A stretch of DNA of 64,000 nucleotides, taken from the NCBI GenBank assembly GCA_020073445.1, contig JAIQFE010000003.1, forward strand, positions 62,001 through 126,000. Direction: 5' to 3'. The position numbers were made by a program, and so were the translations under genes. Source of the DNA: Terriglobia bacterium (GTDB taxonomy: Bacteria; Acidobacteriota; Terriglobia; Bryobacterales; Bryobacteraceae). Under the pieces are notes generated by a model. That model was not told the DNA's origin and searched no databases. It saw only the letters and a list, made by a program, of their open reading frames with translations. This document shows positions 2,892 to 63,102 of this stretch, piece by piece. Numbering within the stretch: position 1 is the stretch's first letter; every line of letters starts with the position of its first letter.

Positions 2892-5579
2892 TCACTCGCA
2901 TCGCAGCGCTTCGATGGGATCGATCCGGCTCGCTCGTAACGCCGGGAGCCACACAGCAAGAAGGGCAACGGCGATCAACAGAATTGGTACCAAGATGAAC
3001 ACGATCGGGTCCCAGGCTTTGACGCCGAACAGAAACCCGGCAATGAAGCGCGTCAGGCCCGCTGCCGCCAGGATACCGATCGCGATTCCCGTCAGCGCCA
3101 GACGCATGCCCTGACCAACCACCATGTTCCGCAGCGCGCCCGATTTGGCTCCCAGCGCCAGGCGGATTCCGATCTCCTGGGTGCGTTGGCGAACAGAATA
3201 GGACATCAGGCCGTAGATGCCGATCGCCGCCAACAGCAGCGCCGCGCCTCCGAAAATGCTCATGAGCATCATATTAAAGTCGTCGCGCGCCGTCGATCGG
3301 ACCGAGATCTCATCCATCGTACGGACCTGCGCCACAGGCAGACCGCCGCTTGCCTGCAGCAGTTCCCTTTCGATGCTAGAACTCAGCGAATAAGGTTCGA
3401 CTCGCGTGCGAATCACCCATGCAATAGGAGTCACACGCGTGAACAGAGCTGCGATGCCAGGGGCGATCTGCGCCAAGGGAACATACATAATGGGGCCCGG
3501 AGTACGATTGAGTCCCTCGTCATGAATATCTCCGGCGATTCCCACGATTTGGCGTGCCGGCTCGTCGAATCCTGGAGCGTATCCCTTTGCAATGACGATG
3601 CGATCGCCCACCGGATTTGTGTCAGGCCAGAACTTGCGCGCCATGGCCTGGTTGATAATGGCGACACCCGCCGCGCCGCCGCCATCGCGATCCGTAAAAG
3701 CTCGGCCACGCACTATGGGAATCCTGAAAACATCAAAGTAGCCCGGCGAGATAGCCGTATAGCTGACTCGCACGGGGCCGCCCGCAAGCGGGTGGCTAAC
3801 GACATCGAACGGAAGGCCGGCATTGTTTTGGAAGAGCGGCAGGGCAGTAGTAGAGCCGGCCGCTTCGACTCCGGGTAGTGCATCAATGCGCTGAACGCCC
3901 TCTCGGACGAGCTGATCCACGGCAGGTGTGTTCACAAAGTGTGTACCAGCCAGTGACATGGGAAGGATTAATACATCGTGTGAATCGAAGCCCGGATTCA
4001 CGGCACGCAAAGCGATAAAACTCCGGATCAATAAGGCCGATCCAATCAACAAGACTAACGCCATCGCCATCTCGCTTATCACCAAGGTCGAGCGGATTGT
4101 GTGTTGCCAAGAGGAGCCGGTGCCGGACCGGCTGTTGCTTTCCTTGAGGGACGAATTCAAATCGCCCCTGGCGGCCTGAAGCGCAGGCATGAGGCCAAAA
4201 AGGATACCAGTAGCGAGTGACATGATCAGTGTGAATATCGCCACACGCCAGTCCGCAGTTACGGCGGAACCATGCGCTCCGATGCGAGGAATATTGCCCG
4301 GGTTCATCGCCAGCAGGGCCTTTACGCCCGCCATCCCGAGCCCCAGACCGAAGCCGCCTCCGGCCACGGAAAGCACTACGCTTTCGGTCAGTAGCTGGCG
4401 GATAATGCGACCGCGCCCCGCGCCCACGGCGGCCCGGATAGCGATCTCGCGCTTCCTTCCGGTCGCGCGGACTAGCAGAAGATTGGCGACATTCGCGCAT
4501 GCGATCAGCAGAACTAAACTGACTGCGCAAGACAGAACCACTAGTGCGGGTCGTACATCGCTCACGAAACGGTCCTGAAGGCGCTCGACGCTGAAACCAT
4601 TACCCACGCCCGCATAATGTGGATACTTGCGGCGGAATTGAGCGTATGCGACTTGAAGCTGGGCATTGGCCATGGCGAGCGTTACACCCGGTTTAAGGCG
4701 GGCGGCGGCAGCGAAGTAATGGGCTTGATCTTCGCTGTTAGGATCGATTGGAAACGGAATCCAGACGTCAGGTGGAGGGTCGCTGTCGAAGTCGAATCCA
4801 GGTCCCAGGATTCCGATCACCGTGTGAGGCTCGCCGCCGAGCGAGATCGTCTTCCCAACCACGTGGGCGTCCCCTCCGAAGCGGCGTTGCCACAGAGCGT
4901 TGCTGAGAACCACGACCTGACCTTCGCCAGGGCGGTCTTCCTCAACGGTGAAGGTGCGTCCCTGGATCACCGGTGCGCCGAAAAGGTGGAAACATGCAGC
5001 GCTAGCCTGTGCTAGCGTGAGCTGCTCAGGGTGGGATTCGCCAGTGAGATTGATCGTGCCGAGCCGATAAGCGGACACGTCGTCGAACACACCGGTCTGT
5101 TGACGCCAGATATTTAGTTCCGCCGCTGAGCCGCCGACCGCTGGTCCGCCAGGCGTGCTCAGCATGAACTGCACAATGCGGTCTGGATTGGGATAGTTCA
5201 GTGGCTTCAGCAACACCGCATTGACCACGGAAAAGATCGCCGTATTCGCTCCAATACCGAGCGCCAGCACCAACACCGCCGTTACCGTAAATCCGGGCGA
5301 TCTGAGGAATATTCGTATCGCAAGCCGCAGATCTTGGAGGAATGTTTCAATCACCGGGAGGCTTTGACCTTCATACCGCTCCTGTTTCACCTCAGCAAAT
5401 CTCCCAAACTGGCGACGAGCTGCGTAAGACGCTTCCCTTCGAGCCATCCCTTCACGGATGAACTCCTCTGTGAGCAGGGACAGGTGAGTCTCAAGCTCTT
5501 CATCAAAGTTCTGATTCTGGCGGCCGCGAACGAAAATAGCGAAAAAGCGTGAAATCCAAACACGTAGCTTGGTCGGCAT
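2892..5579 (-). CDS. ADOP-type ABC transporter permease (MacB/FtsX-like, duplicated)
   Basis: An 895-residue protein with the layout of acidobacterial duplicated orphan permeases. A roughly 75-residue N-terminal head ([16 protein letters not shown], then [16 protein letters not shown]) precedes two MacB_PCD plus FtsX repeats. The first repeat opens with a membrane segment ([23 protein letters not shown]), and FtsX segments follow near residues 350-450. The second repeat begins near residue 500 and ends with FtsX segments ([29 protein letters not shown]). No ATPase gene is adjacent, as is usual for the family. The ATG at 5579 is four bases after the padR stop, so the two genes form an operon. 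Export substrate unknown. Confidence 0.9.
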
Positions 5580-5583
5580 ACTG

Positions 5584-5928
5584 TCACCTCTGACCTTCGA
5601 GTTGAAGCACTCGAGCGACGACGCCGGAAATCCGTTCCCAGTTCTTCACTTGACTGAGCAGCTGCTTGCGGCCGGTTTTCGTGATCGAGTAAAACCTCGC
5701 CCTGCGATTGTTCTCCGATGCGCCCCATTCGGCCGAGATCCATCCGCTCTGCCCGAGGCGCAGTAATGCGGCATAGACTGTCCCTTCGTTCAGCTTCAGG
5801 ACATCTTGGCTGAGTTGTTCAAGCCGCCTTGCGATCCCGTAGCCGTGAAGCGGACCCATGGCATCCAGCGCTTTTAGCACCAGAAGATCGAGGGTGCCTT
5901 GGAGAATCTCGGATCGAGGCTGTTGCAT
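5584..5928 (-). CDS. PadR-family transcriptional regulator
   Basis: A 114-residue winged-helix regulator. The pattern [30 protein letters not shown] is the PadR N-terminal helix-turn-helix signature; [19 protein letters not shown] is the recognition helix and wing. Residues 90-114 form the dimerisation helix. The ATG at 5928 is preceded by AAAGGAG at a 5-base spacing. The frame stays open upstream to 6105 but that extension has no PadR similarity. The gene lies directly upstream of the ADOP permease, and PadR proteins of this type usually repress their own operon. The IS1-type element has inserted about 87 bases upstream of the start. Confidence 0.92.
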
Positions 5929-6014
5929 TTGCTCTCCTTTGGTCTTGCCAAAGGAAGTGTAGCATAAGGTACTCGGGTGTTCCACGCTAGGCCTCGTGTC
6001 CCGTTGAACGCGGC

Positions 6015-6022
6015 TCATTCTG
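6015..6022. repeat. Left copy of 8-bp target-site duplication
   Basis: TCATTCTG lies immediately outside the left inverted repeat of the IS1-type element and is repeated exactly, in the same orientation, immediately outside the right inverted repeat (8923-8930). Eight to nine bases is the usual duplication for the IS1 family. Confidence 0.9.
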
Positions 6023-6047
6023 GGTAGTGTCTTAAATCTGCGTTGAT
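6023..6047 (+). repeat. Left terminal inverted repeat of the IS1-type element
   Basis: The end reads GGTAGTGTCT, then T, then AAATCTGCGTTGAT. Its reverse complement is found at 8898-8922 with a single mismatch, at the eleventh base. The outer GGT matches the ends of IS1-family members. Confidence 0.9.
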
Positions 6048-6098
6048 TGAAAACGGCGCACGATTGCTTTCCGATCCGCCCCGCCTTACCGTTGAAGT

Positions 6099-6398
6099 AT
6101 GGCATCTGACCGCCAATCCCTACAGGCGCTACGGAATCTGATTTCCGATGCGGACCTGATCCTTGAAACTACACCGGCTCTGCCTCAGAACCGTACAGCC
6201 TCCTGCCGTGAGAGTCTACGCGCTGCACTAGCCTTGACTGACGATCTGCTCAAGCAGGCCAAGATGACGCCCGCCGCTGCACTAGGGCACAAGGGCGGAA
6301 GCACCACGGCGAAAAGGCTCGGAGCCGATCATTACCGCCGTATGGCCGCTGCACGCAAGACGCGCGCTGGTGGACGCCCGCGTAAGCAAGCTGACTAA
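6099..6398 (+). CDS. Small basic KGG-like protein, element passenger
   Basis: A 99-residue soluble protein of unknown function. The C-terminal half has GHKGGSTTAKRLGADHYRRM followed by AGGRPRKQ, resembling the KGG repeats of stress-related and phage-borne small proteins and a DNA-contacting AT-hook-like GRP core. The N-terminal half is predicted helical. The ATG at 6099 has only a weak GAAG upstream. The gene is the first inside the IS1-type element, 51 bases from its left repeat. The family link rests on the short motif only. Confidence 0.6.
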   Translation: MASDRQSLQALRNLISDADLILETTPALPQNRTASCRESLRAALALTDDLLKQAKMTPAAALGHKGGSTTAKRLGADHYRRMAAARKTRAGGRPRKQAD

Positions 6399-6427
6399 TC
6401 CAACCGCTAGAATAGTCCCTGAAAACG

Positions 6428-6451
6428 AAAAAGCCCGGCGCGGAGGCCGGG
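6428..6451 (-). terminator. Intrinsic terminator hairpin inside the mobile element
   Basis: CCCGGC at 6434-6439 pairs with GCCGGG at 6446-6451 around a 6-base loop. Read on the minus strand it is followed by five T, so it would terminate antisense transcription. On the plus strand it follows the KGG-like gene and is only weakly T-rich, so any stop in that direction is partial. Confidence 0.6.
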
Positions 6452-6528
6452 GCAGTTTCGATGAGATCTAAGCACCCTCATCGTACTTCCTTCTCCCTAC
6501 TCTGCGCAAGAGGGAGGAGTGCGGCCAC

Positions 6529-7257
6529 TTGGCCTTACAATCAATCAGTCTTGAAGGACGTCGAGCATACCTGACAGCACTTGAGAAACATTGGCCAGAA
6601 GTGTTGGGAGCGTTACGGCGTGACGTTCTGCCCCACTTTGAACCAATCCCGGTACTGTCAAACGGTACAGCGTTCGTCCTAGAATCCTGGCAGGAATGCC
6701 AAGCGGCAGTGAACCGGTCGGAACTGGCGATGGCGCTCAAGCTATGGGGAGACGCTTTCCTGATAAGTGACGACTGGATCTTCGACGCTGCGCTGGAAAC
6801 TCTCGCAACCAACTGCCCCCAGCTGCGGAGGCCACAAATGCGGGATGAGGCCTGGCGCTGGTTCTTCGGATCACGCGAGTCCCATCCAGGATTCGATCCG
6901 CAGTTGAATAAAGCATATTGGTTCCCTCCACGCGGAGGATGGCCTGAAAGCTGGAAAGAGTTCAAGCATCGGATGGAGCGTCAATTTCGCACGCAACTCT
7001 TACAGTACAAACATGCCGTCGAAACCAGACTTGGAGTAGACCGTGAAAAGCAGATACTCAAGCTCGCCGTTTTGGCTGTTCGATGGCAGAAGGGAGAAAG
7101 CATCTCACAAATCGTTCAGACAATCCACATCGGTCAGCAAGCTGATCCTGAGCAGGCTACATACCGCGCGATACAGAGATTTTCAAAGAGCATCGGGCTG
7201 AAGTTAAGAAAGAGAAACCAGCGCCCAGCCCGATCTACTGTACAGCCGCTCCCATGA
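6529..7257 (+). CDS. Protein of unknown function, element passenger (242 aa)
   Basis: I do not recognise this family. It is a soluble 242-residue protein with no signal peptide or membrane segment and many Trp residues in the first two thirds (for example EAWRWFFGSRESHPG and AYWFPPRGGWPESWKEF). Residues about 180-235 (LAVLAVRWQKGESISQIVQTI, then ATYRAIQRFSKSIGLKLRKR) look like a helix-turn-helix, so DNA binding is possible. The start is TTG at 6529, chosen because AGGGAGGAG sits 9 bases upstream. The end of the gene already contains the first of a cluster of TGTACA palindromes. It lies between the KGG-like gene and the transposase. Confidence 0.65.
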   Translation: MALQSISLEGRRAYLTALEKHWPEVLGALRRDVLPHFEPIPVLSNGTAFVLESWQECQAAVNRSELAMALKLWGDAFLISDDWIFDAALETLATNCPQLRRPQMRDEAWRWFFGSRESHPGFDPQLNKAYWFPPRGGWPESWKEFKHRMERQFRTQLLQYKHAVETRLGVDREKQILKLAVLAVRWQKGESISQIVQTIHIGQQADPEQATYRAIQRFSKSIGLKLRKRNQRPARSTVQPLP

Positions 7258-7343
7258 AGTCGCTGTACAGATAATTGTACAAACCCTCATCCGCTTTGCC
7301 TGTACTGAGACCTGTACACGCCGTAAGCCATTCGATCCGTACA
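7238..7343. promoter_or_regulatory. Cluster of TGTACA palindromes
   Basis: TGTACA occurs at 7239-7244, 7264-7269, 7276-7281 and 7313-7318. Three of these are full 8-bp palindromes (CTGTACAG at 7238 and 7263, TTGTACAA at 7275). Near matches TGTACT (7301) and CGTACA (7338) add to the set. Such a cluster could be a binding array for a regulator or transposition protein of the element. No matching known regulator can be named from the sequence. Confidence 0.5.
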
Positions 7344-7606
7344 TTTGGATTCATGCTCATCGCGGCATACTGCGTAAAACACGAACGCCCCACGCGGTCA
7401 ACGTGAGGCGTCGAGATAGGAGGCCGATCAGATGCAGCCGCCATAAACTAACCGAGTGTCCAAGTCACCGGGCAACGGGCTTGCGACCGTCCCGGTCCAC
7501 CCCAGAATCTTAACGCTCTAACCCAAACAAAGTAAAGCAAAAAGAGCCTACAAGCGAAAGCTGATTTGCGTTGACAAACAGCTATCGTAAGCTGTATTAT
7601 TGAAGC
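7258..7606. other. Gene-free stretch upstream of the transposase
   Basis: These 349 bases hold most of the TGTACA cluster in the first 90 bases and the transposase promoter in the last 40. The middle (about 7345-7560) contains no convincing gene. A minus-strand frame of 69 codons exists but shows no family pattern or ribosome site. Confidence 0.6.
7571..7600 (+). promoter_or_regulatory. Transposase promoter with a palindromic operator in the spacer
   Basis: TTGACA at 7571-7576 and TATTAT at 7595-7600 are separated by 18 bases. The spacer holds the perfect inverted repeat ACAGCT-ATCGTA-AGCTGT (7578-7595), which touches the -10 box. Transcription would begin close to the ATG at 7607, so the message should be leaderless or nearly so. 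A repressor bound to the palindrome would block the promoter. Confidence 0.75.
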
Positions 7607-8572
7607 ATGAAGACCGAAACAAAACCCAGCCTGACAATGACTTGCAAGTCATGCGATACGCTGTGTCAACGCTTCGGTCTCCATCGCAATGGACTCCGCA
7701 GATTCCGCTGCCCCGGCTGCAAAAAGACCTACACGGAAGCCCACAAACCCGCCCTGGCTGGAAGCTACCTCTCCCAGGATCGAATCATCCTGGCGTTGCG
7801 ACTGCTCCTGGAAGGCAATAGCATCCGTTCCACGGAGAGAATTGCCGAGACGGACAGGAATACCATCATGCGGCTGCTGACACTGGCCGGTGAGAAGGCC
7901 GAGAAGCTGATGGCGCGGATGATCGTGAATATCCCGGTTCGCGACGTTGAATGCGACGAGCTGTGGGCGTTCGTCGGGAAAAAAGAAAAGCGCGTTCGCC
8001 CCGAGGACGATCCGAGCCTTGGAGACGCCTACTGTTTCGTCGCCATCGAACGAAATACAAAACTGGTTCTCAACTTCGCCCTTGGAAAGCGCAACCAGCG
8101 CACGACGGATACCTTCATCGAAGGCTTGCGTCACGCGACGGCGCGGTCACGATTTCAAATCACAACGGACGGCTTCGCGCCCTACAAATCCGCGATCAGC
8201 AACACGCTTCACGACCGTTGCGATTTCGCCCAACTCATCAAGGTTTATCGCGCTGCCAGCGAAGGCGAAGGCCGCTACAGCCCCGCCGAAGTATCTTCTG
8301 TGGAGGTGGTCCCAGTCATGGGCCAACCCGATCCCGACCGCATCTGCACATCCATCGTTGAACGCCAAAATCTGACAATCCGTATGCACATGCGCCGCTT
8401 AACCAGACTCACGAATGGGTTCTCAAAGAAATGGGAGAGCCTGTGGTCCGCTTACTGCCTGTATTTCGCGTTCTACAATTTCTGCCGTGTTCATAGTTCG
8501 ATCCGCGTCACTCCCGCAATGGAAGCGGGCATCACAGATCACGTGTGGGAACTGGCCGAACTGCTAGCCTAG
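7607..8572 (+). CDS. IS1-family-like DDE transposase
   Basis: A 321-residue transposase encoded in one frame, without the usual InsA/InsB frameshift. The N-terminal zinc ribbon has Cys pairs at 13/16 and 35/38. A helix-turn-helix follows (SIRSTERIAETDRNTIMRLL). The catalytic triad is visible as D117 (VECDELWAF), D188 (ITTDGFAPY) and E252 (SIVERQNLTIRM). The C-terminal pattern VTPAMEAGITDHVW is typical of single-frame IS1-like proteins. The gene starts at an ATG right behind its own promoter and has no Shine-Dalgarno site. The intact triad and intact element ends suggest it is active. Confidence 0.9.
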   Translation: MKTETKPSLTMTCKSCDTLCQRFGLHRNGLRRFRCPGCKKTYTEAHKPALAGSYLSQDRIILALRLLLEGNSIRSTERIAETDRNTIMRLLTLAGEKAEKLMARMIVNIPVRDVECDELWAFVGKKEKRVRPEDDPSLGDAYCFVAIERNTKLVLNFALGKRNQRTTDTFIEGLRHATARSRFQITTDGFAPYKSAISNTLHDRCDFAQLIKVYRAASEGEGRYSPAEVSSVEVVPVMGQPDPDRICTSIVERQNLTIRMHMRRLTRLTNGFSKKWESLWSAYCLYFAFYNFCRVHSSIRVTPAMEAGITDHVWELAELLA

Positions 8573-8600
8573 GAATTCGTCTTCCGTTTGGCTCAATATC

Positions 8601-8897
8601 ATGGCTCCCCCCGAGCTTCCGAGATGGTTAGTCTGGCTGGTGATTGGGATCACCGCCATCGCTTGGATCGCTCTCAACTTAACATCGAATCCCCGGACAC
8701 ACGATGCGATGTTCTGGTGTCTGATCTTCACTATAATCGCGCTGGCCGTCCTGGCGATTGCGCTTCACGCTGAGGACGACAAGGCAGACCGCGTGCGGTT
8801 AACACGCCTATTCTTCGTCGTGGAACTTTTTATATCGGTCGTTGGCGCTATATCGGCACTCTGGGCTTGGGTCGACGCGGGCAAGCGGCTTTGGTAG
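8601..8897 (+). CDS. Small three-segment membrane protein, element passenger
   Basis: A 98-residue protein with three hydrophobic stretches: residues about 8-27 (WLVWLVIGITAIAWIALNL), 38-55 (FWCLIFTIIALAVLAIAL) and 71-91 (FFVVELFISVVGAISALWAW). A short charged loop (HAEDDKADRVRLTR) lies between the second and third. No family is recognised. Its TAG stop ends at 8897 and the right inverted repeat starts at 8898, so the gene fits exactly inside the element. It lies 28 bases after the transposase and is probably transcribed with it. Confidence 0.6.
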   Translation: MAPPELPRWLVWLVIGITAIAWIALNLTSNPRTHDAMFWCLIFTIIALAVLAIALHAEDDKADRVRLTRLFFVVELFISVVGAISALWAWVDAGKRLW

Positions 8898-8922
8898 ATC
8901 AACGCAGATTTCAGACACTACC
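8898..8922 (-). repeat. Right terminal inverted repeat of the IS1-type element
   Basis: Reverse complement of the left end with one mismatch in 25 bases. It starts one base after the stop codon of the small membrane protein and is followed at once by the second copy of the target duplication. Confidence 0.9.
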
Positions 8923-8930
8923 TCATTCTG
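8923..8930. repeat. Right copy of 8-bp target-site duplication
   Basis: TCATTCTG, identical to 6015-6022. It lies 31 bases before the ATG of the secreted protein gene at 8962. Confidence 0.9.
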
Positions 8931-60282: not shown

Positions 60283-63102
60283 TTATTTGGCCAGGTTCAT
60301 TTCGGCTTTCAGGTATCTGCCAGTATAGGATTCCGCGACCTCCGCGATCTGCTCCGGAGTTCCCTCCGCCACGATCCGCCCGCCTGCGTCGCCGCCCTCA
60401 GGTCCGAGATCGATCACCCAGTCCGCCCTGCGAATCACTTCCAGATTGTGCTCGATGATCAGGATGCTGGCGCCCGTGCGCAGCAGCCGCTCAAAGGCAT
60501 CCAGGAGCTTGGCGATATCGTCGAAATGCAGCCCCGTGGTCGGCTCGTCGAAAATGTACAGCGTGCCCTCGCTGGTGGCTTGCGACAGGTGCGCCGCGAG
60601 TTTCACGCGCTGCGCTTCTCCTCCGGAGAGCGTCGTCGCCGATTGCCCCAGCCGCAGATATCCGAGGCCGACGTCCGCGAGCACCTCCAGCTTCTGGGCC
60701 AGCCGCGGCGTGGCTGAAAAGAACGAGATCGCCTCTTTCACGGTGAGTCCCAGCACCTCGTGAATGTTCAGCCCGTGATACAGAACCTCCAGAACGCCCG
60801 GCTTGAAGCGCGTGCCCTTGCAGTCGTCGCAGATCAGCTCGACGTCCGCCAGGAATTGCATCTCCACCGTCACCGTCCCGTCGCCCTGGCAGGTTTCGCA
60901 GCGACCGCCCGGAATGTTGAACGAAAAATGCCCCGCGGTGTAGCCCCGCCGATCGGCCTCAGTGGTCGATGCAAACAGCTCACGGATCATATCGAACGCC
61001 TTGATGTAGGTGATCGGATTCGAGCGCGGCGTGCGGCCGATGGGCGACTGGTCCACCAGCACCACCTGCTTCAACAACTCCGCCTTCTCCACCTTGCGGC
61101 ACGTGAGTTTCTCCGGCGGCACGCCCCAGTCTTCGGGCGATGTGCCTGTCAGCAGCGTCGATTTTCCCTCTTCGTGGCTCAGGCGTTTTTCGAGCGTCTG
61201 ATAGATCACGTCATGCACCAGCGTCGATTTGCCGGATCCTGAAACACCGGTGATCGCCACCATCACGTTGAGCGGAATCGACACGTCGATGCCCTTGAGA
61301 TTGTGCGCCTGCGCCCCCAGGAATCGCACGGCGCGCTTGGGGTTCGGCGTTCGGCGTCCACTGATATAGGAGGTCTGCAAATCGCCGCGCAGGTACTTGG
61401 CAGTGAGTGAAGTGCCCTTTGCGATGAGCTTTTTAAAATCTCCCTCGAAAACGATGTTGCCACCGTTCTCACCCGCTCCCGGCCCCAGATCGACGATGTG
61501 ATCGGCCGAGCGCATCACGTCCGGATCGTGTTCCACCACCAGGATGGTATTCCCCAGATCGCGCAGCTCTTCGAGAATGCTCACCAGCCGGGCCGTATCG
61601 CGGCTATGCAGACCGATCGACGGCTCGTCGAGCACGTAACAAGCGCCCACCAGCCGCGAACCCAGGCACGTCGCCAGTTGGATACGCTGCGCCTCGCCGC
61701 CGGATAGCGTCGCCGACAGCCGGTCCAGCGTCAGATATTCGAGCCCCACGTCGTTCAGGAACTTCAGCCTCTGCCGGATTTCGATCAGGATCTTGTCGGC
61801 GATCGCCATTTCCTCCGGCGCTAGCTGGAGCGAAAGGAAAAAGTCCTGGGCCTGCGCGATGTTCATGCGCGTTACCTCGGCCATATTCTTCCCGCCCACG
61901 CGAATCCATAGCGCTTCGGCCCGCAACCGCGAACCGCCGCAGTCCGGACACAGCGTATAGCCGCGATACCGGCTCAGGAACACCCGCACATGGACTTTGT
62001 ACTTCTTCTTCTCCACTTCCTTGAAGAAGTCGCGAATGTGCTGATGGACGATGGCCATCTCCTCTTTGCGCAGATCGAAGATCGGCACGCTGAGGCGAAC
62101 TTTGCCCCGATTGTCCTTCTTGAAGTCGACCCCGAACCCGGAGTACTGTGGCTTGGTCCACGGATCCACGGCGCCCTGCTGGATGGACAGCGCCCGGTTC
62201 GGGATCACCAGATCCAGGTCATAGTCGATCGTATTCCCGAACCCCTGGCAGCGCCTGCAGGCCCCGAAGGGGTTATTGAAGCTGAATAGGCTCGGTTCCG
62301 GCTCGGTGAAAGTCTTGCCGCACAGCTTGCAGGAGAACTGTTCGTTGAAACGAAGCGTCTGTCCGCCGCCCGCCGGCTCAAAAAGCACCTCCCCCGATTC
62401 GCGATAGCCGATCTCAACGGAATCCACCAGCCGCTGGCGGATATCCGGCGTGATCGCGATCCGATCCACCAGAATGAACACGGGCTTCGAGAAATTGACA
62501 TCCAGGAGCGACTCGGGCGTCGAGAATTCGAACACCTTCCCGCCCTGATACAACCGGTTGAAGCCGCGCTTGCGCAGATCGAACAACTTGTCGCGCAGCG
62601 CATCGGTGCCTTTTTCGGTCGGTGTTTTCTCGTTCACCAGCGGAAACAGGACATACCAGCGCGATCCATCCGGCTGTGCCCGCATGCGCGCGGCCACCTG
62701 ATCCACCGAATCCCGTTCTACATAGACATCGCAATTAGGACAATAGGTTCGGCCCGCGCGCGCCCACAACAACCGCAGGAAATCGTACAGCTCCGTCGAA
62801 GTGGCCACGGTCGATCGCGGATTGCGTGTGGTGTTCTTCTGCCGGATGGCTACCGGCGGCGCGATACCGTCGATGTCATCCACGTCCGGCTTTTCCATGC
62901 GCTCCAGGAACTGCCGCGCGTAAGCCGAGAGTGATTCCACATAGCGCCGCTGCCCCTCCGCGTAGATGGTGTCGAACGCCAGTGACGACTTCCCCGATCC
63001 GGACACACCTGTGACCACGGTCAGGCGATCGTGCGGGATCGCCAGCGAAATGCCCTTCAGGTTATGAACCCGGGCGCCACGAATACGAATGGAGTCGTTC
63101 AA
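60283..63102 (-). CDS. uvrA: Excinuclease ABC subunit A
   Basis: A 939-residue ATPase that recognises bulky DNA damage with UvrB in nucleotide excision repair. Two ABC modules are intact: Walker [15 protein letters not shown] and [14 protein letters not shown], signatures [12 protein letters not shown] and [12 protein letters not shown]. Zinc-module Cys clusters: CKLCGKTF with CRRCQGF, and CETCQGDG with CDDCKGTRF. The start is TTG 63102. It is divergent from the mutY gene, with only 27 bases between the two start codons. Confidence 0.96.

Follow-up and report, generated by a model that had tools for sequence, protein, structure and literature searches.

A 2,900-bp unit at positions 6,023–8,922 of the DNA analysed here (the window: the whole 64,000-nt stretch, positions 62,001 to 126,000 of contig JAIQFE010000003.1 from a Terriglobia bacterium, assembly GCA_020073445.1) is, as judged from sequence and with a probability that we put at roughly 0.9, a complete IS1-family transposon with passenger genes and a member of a lineage that combines a constant chassis with exchangeable cargo. 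We further consider, at even odds, that the whole lineage acts as a small modular immunity shuttle, in which a chassis of ~1.7 kb with two slots would carry anti-phage and toxin–antitoxin modules that are exchanged faster than the transposase diverges, in Acidobacteria as well as Alphaproteobacteria. The chassis of such a shuttle would comprise two ends and one transposase, to which some of the lineage would add a palindromic operator and a small element-specific regulator.

The unit is framed by 25-bp terminal inverted repeats and an exact 8-bp target-site duplication. The left repeat (6,023–6,047, + strand, beginning GGTAGTGTCT) and the right repeat (8,898–8,922, − strand) are complementary at 24 of 25 positions (96%), both start with GGTAGTG, and a sibling copy on contig C4 of the same genome has the same ends. 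The octamer TCATTCTG adjoins the unit on both sides, at 6,015–6,022 and, as an exact match, at 8,923–8,930. Repeats and octamer had been named in an initial reading of the letters (the sequence-only reading), and both can be read directly. Allowing up to three mismatches, the end pattern occurs at four sites in the 6.58-Mb genome, which are both ends of two elements, and a backwards control of the pattern occurs at none. With a threshold score of 22 or more, the end-finder gave no hit at any of 120 decoy anchors within the window or at any of 89 chimeric decoy loci, and the rule that combines ends with a duplication fired on no decoy, the flanking octamer being the part for which chance had been raised as an objection. 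Given these controls, we rejected chance repeats as the source of the ends.

Four ORFs on the + strand between the repeats were taken as genes, encoding 99, 242, 321 and 98 residues. The GC content of the element is 55.1%, compared to 60.2% for the whole window. Non-transposase DNA accounts for 67% of the element, and to this extent the earlier estimate that about two thirds of it is cargo holds; the two passenger ORFs proper make up just 35%.

Transposase and membership of the IS1 family

The 321-residue transposase (7,607–8,572, + strand) is encoded by one ORF and joins a zinc-finger N terminus to a DDE domain. It passes the Pfam model DDE_Tnp_IS1 with 35.7 bits (cut-off 24.1). In a direct comparison to IS1A of E. 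coli MG1655, InsA aligns with the N terminus of the protein (29% over 90 residues, 1e-6) and InsB with the catalytic part (2e-6), with the order InsA then InsB kept; the protein reads as InsA plus InsB in a single frame. Residues D117, D188 and E252 are invariant in all 46 aligned relatives and coincide in the alignment with the D, D and E of InsB from IS1A, in agreement with the intact DDE triad that had been recognized at first sight.

Ends of the form GGnnnTG and target duplications of 8–9 bp characterize the IS1 family. The window element carries GGTAGTG at both ends and a duplication of 8 bp, a length found in all 55 distinct elements of the lineage described below, where the duplication served as a selection criterion. 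Classical IS1 elements are cargo-free, about 0.7–1.2 kb in size, and hold insA and insB in two frames that are joined by a frameshift. The window element departs from this sub-type in its single 321-residue ORF and in its 2,900 bp with two passenger ORFs. The direct comparison with IS1A of E. coli K-12 gives the same picture: the transposases are homologous from the zinc finger through the DDE domain, whereas IS1A measures 768 bp, has separate insA and insB genes, and starts its ends with GGTGATG/GGTAATG. We rejected an assignment to IS1595, since the IS1595 DDE model gave no match to the transposase among Pfam matches up to E = 1 and the zinc model common to IS1 and IS1595 scored 19.0 bits, under its cut-off of 28.

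Shared chassis, exchanged cargo and movement of whole units

We determined the distribution of the lineage by searching for relatives of the transposase, and obtained matches (E ≤ 1e-20) in 55 of 151 genomes, a count that includes the genome of the window; 37 loci came from a one-genome-per-species collection. A script then sought repeat ends plus a flanking 8-bp duplication on either side of the transposase. It returned 56 elements in 55 of the 90 loci with a transposase match and, as L107 is the same element as L017, 55 distinct elements. These range from 1,969 to 7,450 bp (median 3,187), with none below 1,600 bp, and five of the smallest (L011, L014, L078, L098, L101), when inspected, all held ORFs beyond the transposase. 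Cargo had initially been taken as an exception for an IS1-type element; within the lineage studied it is not, all 55 distinct elements exceeding 1.9 kb. The ends are commonly of two types, GGTAGTG...TGCGTT and GGTAGTG...CAGTTTGAAATTT, and the hosts of 26 named loci are Acidobacteria and Alphaproteobacteria. The window's genome holds two further, more divergent transposase relatives with 71% and 45% identity.

The sibling copy on contig C4 (L073:2630–5997) allows the constant and the variable parts to be told apart. Aligned with one another, the two elements match only at element positions 1–463 (80%), 1,355–2,550 (87%) and across the final 23 bp (100%); apart from the pairing of each end with the opposite end, nothing further was reported to match between the blocks. 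The first block (6,023–6,485, + strand, 80% DNA identity) comprises the left end and a gene for a 99-residue KGG-like protein, and the second (7,377–8,572, + strand, 87%) starts 230 bp ahead of the transposase and ends with the transposase stop codon. C4 thus has ends, 99-residue gene and transposase in common with the window element and carries unrelated cargo, the kind of copy that the sequence-only reading had proposed to look for; its transposase frame is broken by a short deletion. The same relation holds across the lineage. Among 46 alignable transposases (L028 left out), 42 pairs reach an identity of 80% or more, and in 39 of the 42 <20% of the remaining DNA is common to both elements. 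The three exceptions are window/C4 (0.33, largely chassis), L033/L035 (0.49) and L038/L041 (0.78). Cargo therefore appears to be replaced much faster than the transposase diverges.

Evidence for movement of whole units comes from relatives. Sphingopyxis sp. PET50 carries two copies that are identical over 3,316 of 3,316 bases and lie at different sites, flanked by CGGAGCCG at one site and CAATGCGC at the other. For the first copy, an alignment of the joined flanks crosses the junction without the element in two of five relatives fetched (G177, G212); for the second, a search of 80 genomes with the flank (E ≤ 1e-20) found nothing beyond the genome that carries the copy. The flanks of the C4 copy are likewise joined without the element in two of three relatives fetched (G019, G020). 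Next to the window copy, relatives conserve the right flank (in G014 from 8,930 on) and not the left one. Passengers that move together with the ends, as in a transporter insertion sequence, are thus seen in the identical 3,316-bp copies of one relative; for the window copy, ends and duplication suggest movement of the same kind.

We propose the following mechanism. The chassis would consist of the left end (together with the KGG-like gene in the sub-lineage of the window), a transposase driven from a promoter of its own, and the right end, and would offer two cargo slots, one from the KGG-like gene to the transposase block and one from the transposase stop codon to the right end. The transposase would bind the 25-bp ends, move the whole unit and make the 8-bp duplications, its expression probably being held down by a protein at a palindrome in its promoter, for which the KGG-like protein is the best candidate. 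Cargo turnover would outpace transposase divergence, and an excess of anti-phage genes in the cargo of the lineage may favour retention of the element.

Several further observations concern the sites and vehicles of the lineage. A target consensus across elements revealed weak base preferences only. At L084:2886–9335, two different lineage elements abut in opposite orientation with one duplication in common, GTTCAGGA standing left of the first, between both and right of the second, as if the second element had inserted exactly at the duplication of the first; in L101 and L124, element-like ends also directly adjoin the element. One Sphingopyxis copy (L178/L027), the first of the two named above, lies inside a REP-like intergenic repeat that is dispersed many times across the genus. 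At the locus of the C4 element in a further genome (L221, G014:C19), 1,082 bp that match none of the loci compared stand between the same flanks. Among five plasmid-borne relatives, both ends and an 8-bp duplication were seen in Mesorhizobium L211 and Hoeflea L213, L210 has ends without a duplication, and two gave no ends. Four of the five plasmid records name an "IS1 family transposase"; the records list the neighbouring genes and mark no unit. In an Acidiphilium plasmid (L212), where ends were not found, the lineage transposase is immediately followed by genes for a RES-domain protein and an MbcA/ParS/Xre antitoxin.

Cargo content, rival explanations and known systems

The window element carries two passenger genes. 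The first (6,529–7,257, + strand, TTG start with GAGGGAGGAG upstream) encodes a 242-residue orphan protein, for which the early description as a protein of unknown family stands: it matched nothing in Pfam, NCBIfam or the plasmid collection. Among 201 genomes searched, the gene turned up in one, which is its own, and the possibility that relatives might carry the passenger genes without the ends finds no instance there. A single-sequence AlphaFold model of the protein (pLDDT 41) is unusable. Our best guess, by analogy with the lineage, is that this passenger is probably a conflict or regulatory gene, and the guess extends to the second passenger; adjacent RmrT and RmrA genes, which define the RosmerTA system, do not occur in the window element. 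The second passenger gene (8,601–8,897, + strand) encodes a hydrophobic protein of 98 residues, a probable membrane protein with only below-cut-off matches in Pfam and NCBIfam, mostly to membrane families.

For the lineage as a whole, we compiled 107 cargo proteins, that is, ORFs of at least 120 residues collected from 51 elements with a greedy ORF rule, after removal of (i) clusters 4, 5 and 6 (spurious or antisense), (ii) the transposase cluster 0 and transposase-flagged or overlapping ORFs and (iii) the duplicate L028. They were compared to 107 flanking proteins, a random sample of 322 ORFs called by a similar rule at the same loci. The alignment scans gave the best 25 of 103 families for PADLOC and the best 25 of 39 for Pfam, and matching members are known only where proteins were scanned singly. 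Among the PADLOC matches listed (1e-10 or better), RmrA models account for 8 of 107 and PD-Lambda-2_B for 5 of 107 cargo proteins. Neither model matches any of the 107 flanking proteins, where only methyltransferase models and PD-Lambda-5_B find a member, one each. For both models together, 13 of 107 versus 0 of 107 gives a Fisher p of 1.7e-4, uncorrected for relatedness.

RosmerTA, composed of RmrT and RmrA, and PD-Lambda-2 are both tested systems of anti-phage defence. In L037, L038, L080 and L114, the gene beside a protein of the RmrA cluster is matched by RmrT models; the RmrA assignment itself is based there on membership of the cluster and on the total of eight, L081 being the only one tested singly. 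The accessible text of one source lists RosmerTA and PD-Lambda-2 among defence systems (PMC12824646), and that of another lists RosmerTA (PMC13216270). Other cargo of defence or toxin type, among the matches listed, includes AAA/HEC-04, SoFic, NYN/HEC-09, MqsA, PemK (2) and TIR (1), and in L085 the cargo includes a DNA methylase that also bears a nuclease domain of Mrr type. P63C occurs in 4 of 107 cargo proteins (again among the matches listed), next to matches to thymidylate kinase, dCTP-deaminase-like, proteasome-like and aspartyl-protease-like proteins.

How far these data carry depends on the alternatives. One would see the window element as a bare IS1-type element that captured neighbouring genes once and is an isolated oddity. 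IS1A of E. coli MG1655, annotated with insA and insB alone over 768 bp, is what such an origin would start from, but the absence of any small member among the elements with ends and duplication, together with near-identical transposases that carry different cargo, makes it very improbable, and we rejected it. Still more improbable is a composite transposon or larger island whose outer repeats are the remnant of two IS copies. Several genes do sit between two repeat ends; the unit has, however, a single transposase, one left and one right end and an 8-bp duplication at its outer edges, relatives follow the same plan, and no second transposase copy or internal ends were seen within it, so that this reading was rejected as well. 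A third alternative concerns the cargo, which could be random captured DNA with no bias towards defence, the PADLOC signal reflecting two successful sub-lineages. The 13 matches do equal in number two sequence clusters of eight and five proteins, and the 39 Pfam families among the 107 cargo proteins include thymidylate kinase and proteasome-like proteins. The lack of RmrA or PD-Lambda-2_B matches among the flanking proteins and the additional defence or toxin-type cargo (the methylase–Mrr fusion, HEC-04, HEC-09, SoFic, TIR, MqsA and PemK) speak for a bias, and we regard random capture as rather unlikely.

The reading of the window element as a passenger-carrying IS1-family transposon, and of its lineage as a carrier of defence cargo, has in turn to accommodate a number of results that weigh against it. 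At 35 of the 90 loci, the rule gave no end pair; these would be contig edges, degraded copies or missed ends, and they may hide a minority of bare or end-less elements. The NCBIfam equivalog transpos_IS1 scores the transposase at 90.1 bits, below its cut-off of 100, so that the protein counts as divergent on this measure; the model serves for naming and does not define the IS1 family. The relatives compared show no element-free locus for the window copy, and a single-copy 6,015–6,022 site, which had been suggested as a check, was not found in them. The element-free loci of the sister copies (C4, Sphingopyxis) do not resolve the target octamer itself, in C4 because the spacer is shorter in G019 and G020. 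With regard to the cargo, the 242-residue protein matches no PADLOC defence model, RmrT models gave no match to either of the neighbours tested in each of L019 and L081, and 14 of 30 singly scanned cargo proteins have no Pfam family at E ≤ 0.05, a figure that also fits random capture.

Carriage of unrelated genes by a transposable unit has precedents. Transporter insertion sequences hold genes unrelated to transposition between their ends (Siguier, Gagnevin and Chandler 2009, a paper on the IS1595 family, as cited in PMC3129680), as the window element does; the present lineage stands on the IS1 side, with no match to an IS1595 DDE model, every element with ends and duplication exceeds 1.9 kb, and its cargo turns over fast. 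Tn3-family transposons, in the part of the source consulted, also carry conflict modules, namely toxin–antitoxin pairs, and related units differ in their passenger sets; unlike the present lineage they have their own transposase, a resolvase and a res site, the toxin–antitoxin pair lying mostly in the transposition module beside res (PMC7157771). For Tn7-like transposons, the available text gives 96% with cargo and an enrichment of anti-MGE (mobile genetic element) defence genes; they differ in their Tn7-like core genes and arrays of transposase-binding sites, compared to a chassis of ~1.7 kb with one transposase here (PMC8649781). Among the literature matches listed, the lineage is not reported, in a search that had ISfinder and most subscription papers outside its scope and hence is no proof of novelty. 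Long IS1-family members of the ISMhu11 type, presumably up to several kb in size (unconfirmed), may overlap with the lineage, which would lower its novelty. Passenger-carrying insertion sequences are already known as an idea; what appears new is an IS1-family lineage with exchangeable cargo.

Defence genes ride on prophages, plasmids and large transposons. If a single-transposase unit of the IS1 type carries them routinely, it becomes testable (i) how individual defence modules pass from one genome to another when no large vehicle is involved and (ii) how cargo between fixed ends is exchanged. As exact ends delimit each cargo module, orphan genes inside are direct candidates for new defence systems, and if the lineage does act as an immunity shuttle, orphan cargo such as the 242-residue protein would make up a list of candidate unknown defence systems.

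KGG-like gene, transposase promoter and minor features

The KGG-like gene (6,099–6,398, + strand, 99 residues) had been counted among the passengers. We revise this assignment: a repeat end (at least 15 of 22 bases matching) lies directly upstream of the gene in 17 of 24 alignable places, and the gene, like the ~230 bp upstream of the transposase, is common to the C4 sibling; therefore, we consider both to belong to the chassis. Relatives of the gene occur at 25 places in 19 of 201 genomes. In 12 of the 17 places, the repeat end is 76–80 bp from the start codon; the remaining 7 of the 24 scored 11–14, and at least two of them (L190, L192) adjoin ends that are shifted by one base relative to the pattern. 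Between window and C4, 45 of 63 differences in the gene fall on codon position 3. The C terminus of the protein is conserved around KGG, RKT and GGRPRK, and the protein is predicted to be helical (pLDDT 82) with no match in the PDB at E ≤ 0.001. Near their left end, alphaproteobacterial elements often encode another small protein, of the GG..RA..RW kind, and homology to the acidobacterial KGG-like protein is not established (hhalign probability 27.9%).

Upstream of the transposase, a promoter-like sequence TTGACA-18-TATTAT (7,571–7,600, + strand, 11 of 12 consensus bases) encloses the palindrome ACAGCT-N6-AGCTGT (7,578–7,595), a candidate operator; the promoter scan of this region found 2 sites, where chance alone would give 1.6. 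Promoters of similar make-up, whose palindromes are exact or imperfect, occupy the equivalent position in L073, L074, L075, L081 and L085, which gives 6 of 26 rows including the window, two rows being one locus. The KGG-like gene is present in all six elements with a palindromic promoter, and the KGG-like protein is the best candidate for a putative repressor at the palindrome. As the six are close relatives, their co-occurrence backs the regulator role only weakly. A tentative alternative, to which we assign a substantial minority share, is that the protein is an accessory factor of transposition or targeting and not a repressor of the transposase. Its coupling to the left end, its conservation and its predicted helical fold with no PDB match would suit such a factor, as would L077, L088 (with a truncated gene) and L089, which carry the KGG-like gene without the promoter palindrome of the six elements in the stretch examined; the six-element co-occurrence, for what close relatives can contribute, fits a regulator instead.

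An Rfam scan gave a single match at E 0.47, far below its cut-off. On the − strand left of the element (2,892–5,943), an ORF of 895 residues that is permease-like by eye and a PadR regulator of acidobacterial type (TIGR03433) are the nearest neighbours; in the relatives compared, they were not found beside the conserved right flank. Five TGTAC motifs (at 7,239, 7,264, 7,276, 7,301 and 7,313, within 7,239–7,317) cluster at and just behind the end of the 242-residue gene; the cluster, which lies in the part without a C4 counterpart, is a possible operator array. In L198:1501–1812, the N terminus of a KGG-like protein is fused in frame to the C-terminal part of the transposase, and on its sequence this locus is a derivative with an internal deletion.

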